From NCBI RefSeq assembly GCF_021531695.1, contig NZ_JADYUI010000006.1:1-64000 (forward strand): a stretch of DNA of 64,000 nucleotides, written 5' to 3'. Origin of the DNA: Roseburia hominis (lineage in GTDB: Bacteria > Bacillota > Clostridia > Lachnospirales > Lachnospiraceae). The notes under the pieces were generated by a model that was given only the letters and a program-made list of their open reading frames with translations, made no database searches and was not told where the DNA came from. Positions 14,252 to 50,526 of this stretch are shown here, in pieces. Both the position numbers and the translations under genes were made by a program. How positions within the stretch are numbered: the stretch's first letter is position 1; each line of letters starts with the position of its first letter.

Positions 14252-14296
14252 ATCATCTGCTTCCTTTCCTACTGTTTTTCTTCCTATTAAATTAAA

Positions 14297-14572
14297 TGTT
14301 TTTTTGCTGTTTTTGTTACAACAAAAACAGCGGATAACTTCTTAGAGACGAAGTTATCCGCGGTTCCACTCTATCTAAAGATGCCTGTTACATCTTTCCC
14401 TCTGCTACTAACGCGTAGTAAACGTATCAGGCTACTTTCTTTCACCCAATCTGCTCCCGGACGCACTTTCAGATAAGTCTCATAAAAACTGCTCCCAGCC
14501 AATGGCAATTTCTCTCTGATACGATAGCTTTCTTACTCTTTCCGTTCTATGCATTTATCCTTATACAACCAG
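14297..14572 (-). promoter_or_regulatory. T-box riboswitch leader, cysteine specific
   Basis: The minus-strand leader of cysE contains the T-box antiterminator core AGTGGAACCGCGG (14358-14370), which overlaps the start of the terminator stem. Upstream, GAAAGTGCGTCCGGGAG aligns with the Stem I specifier region of known T-boxes (GAAC-codon-...GGAG) and places TGC, a Cys codon, at the specifier position. Uncharged tRNA-Cys should pair with it and permit read-through into cysE, cysS and the downstream genes. Confidence 0.93.
14329..14361 (-). terminator. T-box-controlled terminator
   Basis: GCGGATAACTTC and GAAGTTATCCGC form a 12-bp stem followed on the minus strand by TGTTTTTGTT. It shares CCGCGG with the antiterminator, which is the expected mutually exclusive arrangement. 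Confidence 0.92.
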
Positions 14573-15154: not shown

Positions 15155-15184
15155 GATTTTTCCTCCGTTCTTTTCCTTTTTATT

Positions 15185-15498
15185 GATGTTGGGGTCAAAA
15201 GGTCGCAAAAAAACATTAATCTGTCATATTGCACAAAATGAATTTGGTATTTGTGACTTATGAAGGATATTAGATTTTCTTAATGTTCTGTAAACTACTC
15301 CAGCAACTCAGCAACAGGATGTTGATGAGAGCCCATGTTGAGCCATGGATGGCGAATCTTGGGCGGTTGCGGTCGTGCTCCAAACACCTGCCAGAACATT
15401 TAGAAAATGTTATATCCGTAATTCGGAACAAATGACAAATTACATCTTTGTGCAATATGACAAGCAAAAATTAGTTTGCAACCTTTTGACTCCAACAC
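15185..15498. repeat. Outer inverted repeat enclosing structured element copy A
   Basis: Arms at 15185-15209 and 15475-15498 are inverted copies with three mismatches (core GGGGTCAAAAGGT against ACCTTTTGACTCC). They enclose the whole element at 15222-15462 with unequal spacers. The CCTTTTGACCC-type arm also occurs once near 6430. No matching arms surround copy B at 50201-50439. Confidence 0.65.
15222..15462. ncRNA. Structured ~240-nt element, copy A
   Basis: No credible gene. Complementary ends (15222-15237 with 15447-15462) give 16 perfect pairs. A second stem pairs 15265-15290 with 15392-15417, 23 of 26 positions, with T.T mismatches at 15271/15411 and 15281/15401. The apical part can form two hairpins: CTCAGCAAC/GTTGATGAG, and GCCCA/TGGGC enclosing a GCC/GGC stem. 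It ends with GGTTGCGGTCG, which is identical in copy B. Whether it is transcribed, and from which strand, is unknown. The strongest alternative is a non-autonomous mobile element. Confidence 0.6.
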
Positions 15499-15536
15499 CT
15501 TTTACTTAGTCTACCATAAGAAATCCACCAAAACAA

Positions 15537-49693: not shown

Positions 49694-49809
49694 TATTTTA
49701 CTCCTTTTGCCTTTTCCTTTATCCTATTCATTTTTAAACAGATTCGTTCCATGCCGACTTATAAATTCTGATTTGCAGAATTAGATGAACTAAGATTATG
49801 CACTGCTTC

Positions 49810-50083
49810 TTTTGCTAGAATTTTATTATAAACATCAGAAGAAAATGCCGCCTGTAAAAAAGACCTGGACTGTCTTCCTTGTTTTTCTAAGAGCCCGCCG
49901 GAAAAGCTTCGATTACAGTGCTGCTCCCACAACTCGCCTTGCAGACAGTGGATTTTTGTATGTTCTTGTGCTCACACATGTGTCCGCAGCATGATTGCTT
50001 TCCCGGCTTTCACTCTAAGAAAAACAGCGGAAGACGAAAAGGTCTTTTCCACAGGCGCATTTTCTTCTGCTGTTTTAGCAAAA
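49810..50083. repeat. 274-bp imperfect long palindrome
   Basis: Arms of about 110 nt fold back on each other. TTTTGCTA (49810-49817) meets TAGCAAAA (50076-50083). 49838-49865 pairs with 50041-50067 at 25 positions with one bulge. GTCTTCC, TGTTTTTCT and GCCGG segments then pair further in. Two small open frames here (60 and 74 codons) lack ribosome sites and family likeness. Two adjacent A.C oppositions in the main stem would be G.U pairs if the minus strand were transcribed, weakly suggesting that strand. Confidence 0.6.
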
Positions 50084-50200
50084 TATATGCGCAAAAGAAG
50101 CAGGGATATACGGTTCATTGTGTTTTTCTATGCATGGATTGAAACAAAAAATAATTCTTTTTGATGATGTAAAATAAAACGTACTTTCTTAACGTCGAAC

Positions 50201-50439
50201 TGTCATCTTACACAAAATCATTTCAGTCTTTGTGACTGGTGAAGGACATTAGATTTGGTTAATGTTCTGTCGATACCAAGCAATCCGGCAGCATGGATGC
50301 TGACGGAAGGCTGAACCTGAGCCCGGATGGCGAATTTCAGCCGGTTGCGGTCGACTTTCATAATGATATCAGAACATTTACAAAATCTTATGTCCGTAAC
50401 CTCGGAACAAAGAATGAAATGTTTTTTTGTAAGATGACA
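50201..50439. ncRNA. Structured ~240-nt element, copy B
   Basis: 239 bp, the same architecture as copy A. The terminal stem pairs 50201-50212 with 50428-50439 (12 pairs, continuing after one mismatch). The second stem pairs 50244-50269 with 50370-50395, 23 of 26 positions, with T.T at 50250/50389 and 50260/50379. Two apical hairpins follow: CCG-CAGCA/TGCTG-CGG, and GGCTGA/TCAGCC enclosing GCC/GGC. GGATGGCGAAT and GGTTGCGGTCG are identical to copy A. It lies about 180 bp before the 1424-aa activase gene and upstream of its promoter. Confidence 0.6.
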
Positions 50440-50526
50440 TTCGTAGACGCTGAAAAATACCTGTGTACTATTTTTACAAATCAGAATTTGCAAAAATAAA
50501 CTATTTCTAAAATATTTTTTTCTCCG

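Follow-up and report, generated by a model that had tools for sequence, protein, structure and literature searches.

The two copies of the element found in the window (the whole 64,000-nucleotide stretch analysed here, contig C114 of a 3.11 Mb draft genome) are best read as non-autonomous, MITE-like mobile DNA palindromes that carry the Rfam family RF01731 (TwoAYGGAY) at their tip, whose stems are maintained at the level of DNA and whose tip is a candidate ligand of CsrA; we give this joint reading a probability of about 0.7. A known RNA motif, listed by Rfam since 2010 with no function assigned, appears to sit as a conserved tip on a mobile DNA element. The points against the joint reading are a transposase that was not found, a composite around copy B without a target duplication, a flagellin gene that tracks the element, the presence of CGA loops and pentaloops, and signs of a mild G.U excess in the stems.

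The two window copies and family RF01731

Both window copies match RF01731 over the full model (positions 1–168; cmscan, gathering cut-off 43 bits). The earlier note had described a two-copy element as a candidate undescribed structured RNA or cruciform DNA and had suggested a comparison with Rfam, which settled both points differently: the central 168 positions correspond to a family published in 2010, with 117 and 109 bits over the core of each copy, and the genome contains 32 RF01731 matches. The motif was originally reported as a probable RNA (Weinberg et al., PMC2864571). Its Rfam entry gives function unknown, type “Cis-reg” and membership of CL00106, the Csr-Rsm protein-binding clan (PMC5753348). 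The published mentions of TwoAYGGAY that were found are lists, structure updates or the description “relatively unexplored”, and no published account was found placing the motif in mobile palindromes or dealing with maintenance of its stems at the DNA level.

Copies A and B are identical at 167 of 243 positions. The compensatory pairs reported earlier between them are exact (A 15228-15456 A-T and B 50207-50433 C-G; A 15231-15453 G-C and B 50210-50430 A-T; A 15268-15414 T-A and B 50247-50392 C-G; A 15279-15403 C-G and B 50258-50381 G-C), and so are the invariant blocks, GGATGGCGAAT at 15347 and 50325 and GGTTGCGGTCG at 15365 and 50343, which have no further occurrence in the window. Two hairpins per copy are closed by AYGGAY-type loops (AGGAU and AUGGAU in A, AUGGAU and CGGAU in B), one loop in each copy being one base shorter than that type. 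A conserved protein in the minus-strand open frame, a possibility raised in the earlier note, was not seen, the frame being interrupted by stops in most sister copies.

The positions first assigned to the copies, 15222-15462 and 50201-50439, were correct, but the element is larger: copy A extends beyond them on both sides and copy B lies inside a composite (Table 1). The outer inverted repeats of copy A are GATGTTGGGGTCAAAAGGTCGCAA / TTGCAACCTTTTGACTCCAACACC; it also has inner repeats, TGTCATATTGCACAAA, which copy B shares. The terminal ends of copy A read GATGTTGGGGTC.../...GACTCCAACACC and, as expected of a MITE, it is small and lacks a transposase gene. The predicted fold of copy A including its outer arms lies 9.9 SD below dinucleotide shuffles, and that of the composite around copy B 15.5 SD below shuffles. 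5' to copy B the composite contains a second palindromic module, of which the genome has 15 or more copies, a number of them apart from TwoAYGGAY. That this module might be a diverged TwoAYGGAY was rejected, as it does not match the TwoAYGGAY model; it has no Rfam match either. Elsewhere in the window, a T-box leader (RF00230, 114.8 bits) is found on the minus strand at 14341-14558.

Table 1. Features of the TwoAYGGAY elements in the window
Feature	Positions	Strand	Basis
Copy A, full mobile palindrome, 315 bp, subfamily A	15185..15499	+	inverted repeats found in some twelve sister copies
RF01731 TwoAYGGAY core of copy A	15258..15424	+	cmscan 116.8 bits
Apical hairpin 1 of A (CTCAGCAACA-GGA-TGTTGATGAG)	15307..15329	+	sequence; covarying stem, GGA loop
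Apical hairpin 2 of A (GCCCA...GCC-AUGGAU-GGC...TGGGC)	15331..15364	+	sequence
Degraded 7-bp target-site duplication of copy A, left half (TTTTATT)	15178..15184	.	6/7 identical to 15500-15506
Degraded target-site duplication of copy A, right half (TTTTACT)	15500..15506	.	6/7 identical to 15178-15184
Copy B palindrome, subfamily B	50201..50439	+	18 sisters at 90-95% identity, one partial at 84%
RF01731 TwoAYGGAY core of copy B	50237..50402	+	cmscan 109.4 bits; covariance model R1 of this study 153.5 bits
Apical hairpin 1 of B (C-AUGGAU-G loop)	50284..50307	+	sequence; covarying stem
Apical hairpin 2 of B (GCC-CGGAU-GGC loop)	50309..50342	+	sequence
725-bp composite enclosing copy B, bounds AATTCTGATTTG / CAAATCAGAATT	49764..50488	+	no target-site duplication at the outer ends
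Second, unrelated palindromic module (~310 bp), 5' side of copy B	49797..50110	.	arms 49803-49893 and 50013-50103

Dispersal, ends and genomic context

The mobility of the element is well supported by its anatomy: the copies are dispersed, bounded by inverted repeats and flanked by 7- or 9-bp duplications, coreless derivatives exist, coding capacity is absent, and the orientation relative to genes is random. Relative to copy B, the A subfamily of its own genome stands at 71–75% identity. Of 299 genomes sampled from the family, roughly one for each genus, 45 carry the motif, and no RF01731 match was obtained in 14 control genomes, nor any TwoAYGGAY match in plasmid or phage records. Matches of the DNA pattern outside the Lachnospiraceae (Micavibrio, Brucella, Geobacter and others) were dismissed as chance, since none of those tested matched the covariance model.

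Two end families were distinguished, GATTCGGGTGTCAAAAGGT (GATTCGGGTGTCA ends) with 7-bp and CACGGAAATCAATTTT with 9-bp duplications, the lengths being read by hand from printed flanks. Exact 7-bp direct repeats flank several copies of the A subfamily (ATAACAT, ATATTAT, ATTTATT, ATAAACT and TGTATAG); by locus, the 7-bp duplications include ATAACAT at L026, ATAAACT at L030, TGTATAG at L028 and TTATTCT at L190, and the 9-bp ones CCGCTATAT at L078 and CTTCATGCC at L160. Over copies from many genera, flanking direct repeats of at least 8 nt occur in 12 of 136 cases, against 11 of 1360 mismatched flanks. The family as a whole has the fixed-length target duplication of MITEs, which copy A retains at six of seven positions, while none is visible at the outer ends of the composite around copy B. 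The end GATTCGGGTGTCAAAAGGT is found in several genera, where it bounds both core-bearing elements of ~300 bp and coreless ones of 85–118 bp; in one genome (G536) it occurs 72 times, and the loci sampled there bound elements of ~300–313 bp or 85–118 bp. A coreless A-type hairpin is also present in the window's own genome (L062, C124:77672-77786), with outer and inner inverted repeats kept and the core absent. In the nearest relative, G489, which was checked for an empty site, the flank alignment ends at 14268.

Since no transposase with these ends was found in the own genome, in 298 further family genomes (exact 15-mer) or in 24 genomes bearing the terminal inverted repeats or the motif, we infer transposition in trans; a DDE-type transposase would act on the element ends. 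In the own genome the 15-base end TCAAAAGGTCGCAAA bounds short elements or stands as single relics only, and no transposase-type ORF lies between the A-type ends at C92:133391 and C92:138165. An exact 15-mer overlapping TCAAAAGGTCGCAAA matched once in the 298 other family genomes, at a site within a long ORF, and the genomes bearing the inverted repeats yielded elements of ~300 bp and ~100 bp only, with no autonomous partner. A spacing of ~1.4 kb between two oppositely oriented GATTCGGGTGTCAAAAGGT ends (L280, 123-1518) was considered as an autonomous transposon and rejected, as it contains a ketol-acid reductoisomerase gene. Elements are themselves interrupted at some loci: a ~200-bp palindromic element (TAGCCCGAATTATTCACAGC...) is inserted in an A-type copy at L063 (~1665-1868; C135:62164-62367), and a ~660-bp segment with inverted AATGTCATTTAGAT repeats at its bounds splits hairpin 2 of another at L109 (~1310-1977).

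Regarding genomic context, the earlier note had placed both copies in divergent regions before a + strand gene. Both window copies do precede such a gene, but this is no rule across relatives. Together with the Rfam type, that arrangement would suit a leader that acts in cis on whichever gene follows its 3' end. When the distinct copies having such a gene within 200 nt were counted (ORF-based gene calls), however, the gene lay in the same sense in 61 and in the opposite sense in 76, a random orientation that argues against the “Cis-reg” label. In addition, the genes flanking the window copies are unrelated (YgbB/IspF, FecCD, LysM, BadF-type activase), and the score given to cis-regulation by Weinberg et al. 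is “n” (probably not), a riboswitch being likewise considered improbable (PMC2864571). A leader function is accordingly extremely improbable.

Pairs of elements within 1.5 kb of each other are always head to head (− then +, with 5' sides facing) in the 18 pairs collected, several of which come from one genome (L181, L139, L206, L208, L209, L230, L196, L152, L136, L213, L084, L112, L107, L110, L108, L090, L114 and L095); two further head-to-head pairs and one tandem pair are present among the matches in the sampled genomes. A leader arrangement is an unlikely cause, given the random gene orientation. The pairing looks as if the ends had polarity, which would be in keeping with a tip that serves as a single-stranded DNA hairpin signal for a mobility enzyme, as with HUH transposases, REP hairpins or attC sites, and such a role would also agree with free stem sequence, a conserved loop and exclusively Watson-Crick pairing. 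However, coreless derivatives have the same ends, so that the tip seems dispensable for movement, and duplications of 7–9 bp point to a DDE transposase; we regard this role of the tip as quite unlikely.

Covariation and maintenance of the stems

Nearly all stem pairs of the element are Watson-Crick, and the exceptions show at most a slight bias towards G.U relative to A.C. A covariance model was built from ten cores and gave 98 and 84 matches among the loci examined; this model and a covariation test, along the lines proposed in the earlier note, returned many homologues with strongly covarying pairs. In two alignments of relatives, 86.6–87.5% of pairs are standard, 798 and 1203 cells are changed on both sides, and covariation scores of 0.40 and 0.70 compare with 0.12 and 0.16 in shuffles. 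None of 500 shuffles reached the observed structure support, and many stem positions show three or all four Watson-Crick types.

An RNA helix tolerates G.U pairs and not their mirror image, A.C, whereas in duplex DNA the two are equivalent. Counted as cells rather than as phylogenetic events, the outer arms contain 284 G.U, 234 A.C and 8380 Watson-Crick pairs under a strand-neutral alignment score. Counted likewise and summed over the two alignments, apical hairpin 1 has 10 G.U against 29 A.C and hairpin 2 has 34 against 29 (44 against 58 in total), whereas terminator-like hairpins in the same loci, used as a control under equally neutral rules, have 48 against 10. Alignments made with the covariance model show a mild excess of G.U in the best-paired columns (91 against 51 A.C). 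A single stem position has G.U in roughly half the copies (columns 19/268 of alignment A4 and 23/277 of A5), and no other wobble in the structure looks clearly RNA-like. Because of this position and of the excess in the best-paired columns, some RNA-level constraint may act on the stems.

The outer arms provide a further view of how pairing is kept. In Lachnospiraceae 28-4 the cores are alike, while the purine-rich arms of 80–110 bp are unrelated between copies and most are near-perfectly paired. The argument that simple transposon ends would share sequence and not only pairing, made in the earlier note, fails on these arms. More broadly, arms of 80–130 bp that are unrelated within a genome, purine-rich on the 5' side and mostly self-complementary were noted in Lachnospiraceae 28-4 (L159, L174, L181, L198, L238, L246) and in S10_Bin3 (L165, L180, L191, L211).

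A true structured RNA, a small RNA with stems under RNA-level selection that is incidentally multi-copy, would account for the strong covariation, the conserved GGA loops, the conserved G.U pair and the excess in the best-paired columns. It does not agree with arms or apical stems in which G.U is not favoured over A.C, unlike the terminators of the same loci, with outer arms whose sequences are unrelated among the copies within a genome, or with inverted repeats and target duplications, and we consider it unlikely. Of the two options first offered, structured RNA or cruciform DNA, the fold and its covariation are real, but the RNA option gives way to a DNA palindrome, which is favoured by the dispersed copies, terminal inverted repeats, target duplications, random gene orientation and lack of a G.U preference over A.C. 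The covariation is strand-symmetric and fits maintenance in DNA, so it does not prove an RNA here. These data support the maintenance of stem complementarity at the DNA level. The mechanism is probably replication template switching between the arms, which would keep them complementary in place of selection on an RNA helix; template switching is described as making and keeping perfect hairpins (PMC8794818). The covariation of this element, of a strength that normally passes for proof of an RNA structure, is explained in this reading by strand-symmetric maintenance of DNA, and the count of G.U against A.C offers a simple check applicable to other orphan RNA motifs.

The conserved tip, CsrA and known systems

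In 140 of 169 copies both hairpins carry GGA in the loop, the loops being mostly CANGGATG, ATGGAT or CGGAT, with a GGA-to-GGA spacing of 27–31 nt where measured; some loops have CGA in place of GGA, and many have five bases, not six. High-affinity sites of CsrA/RsmE are ANGGAN or CANGGANG hairpin loops (hexaloops), often paired (PMC7652899, PMC4894983). Among the 299 family genomes, of which 154 have csrA and 156 flagellin, csrA is found in 44 of 45 carriers and 110 of 254 non-carriers (Fisher p = 1.7e-13). Flagellin is present in all 45 carriers and follows the element just as closely as csrA, so the link with csrA is confounded with flagella and may in part reflect common descent of the motile lineages.

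A core without a function of its own, conserved through descent from recent masters, would be in line with an element that is clearly mobile and chromosomal, being absent from plasmid and phage records. Between genera, however, the stems vary among up to four Watson-Crick types while the GGA loops, the closing C-G and the GCAA/TTGC stem stay, for which selection on the core is needed; a functionless core is therefore very unlikely.

Under the mobile-palindrome reading, the conserved tip would be cargo and, more tentatively, a nucleic-acid ligand when read through. Its best candidate partner would be CsrA, as the two loops usually offer a GGA within a hairpin resembling (C)ANGGAN(G) and nearly every carrier is a csrA-positive flagellate; a role of the element as a dispersed CsrA decoy is a plausible hypothesis. 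In the own genome csrA follows fliW and is intact, and by eye, in an alignment with the E. coli protein, its product keeps the RNA-binding L and R of E. coli positions 4 and 44. FliW is a known CsrA antagonist in Bacillus subtilis. The elements could go further and act as transposable CsrA sponges, the transcribed tip titrating CsrA as an RNA antagonist beside FliW in flagellated Lachnospiraceae, with a dosage set by copy number, a speculative and unlikely extension. If true, the CsrA reading would add an RNA antagonist to the CsrA-FliW system, for which none was found described in the literature. Extra, divergent CsrA copies were noted in five carrier genomes (G180, G320, G363, G379 and G142). 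Second csrA copies as part of a mobile element were rejected, the inspected one (G180, L247) adjoining flagellin.

Compared with known systems, the element resembles bacterial MITEs in its length of ~300 bp, terminal inverted repeats, target duplications, lack of coding capacity and tens of copies, but differs in being wholly self-complementary, with a conserved branched tip, at least two unrelated end types and an autonomous partner that was not found. RAYT/REPIN and IS200/IS605 hairpin elements make no target-site duplication and have a hairpin recognised by a Y1 transposase, whereas duplications of 7–9 bp flank the TwoAYGGAY palindromes, which do not fit this type in that respect. The window copies share with RF01731 as described the two hairpins with (A)NGGA-type loops and the Clostridiales hosts; in contrast to that probable RNA, they lie within mobile palindromes whose arms extend past the Rfam model, with target duplications and stems maintained at the DNA level. 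In hairpins maintained by template switching, too, compensatory changes arise instantly and G.U intermediates are few, but the described cases are RNA genes under RNA selection (PMC8794818), whereas the TwoAYGGAY arms reach ~200 nt and belong to a mobile element. Finally, CsrB/C and RsmX/Y/Z belong to the same clan as RF01731 (CL00106), and the element likewise has GGA in two adjacent hairpin loops and a host that encodes csrA. Unlike these RNAs, TwoAYGGAY has two sites only, inside a very long duplex, is spread as dispersed mobile copies, is a putative ligand of CsrA, and is set in a genome with fliW beside csrA.
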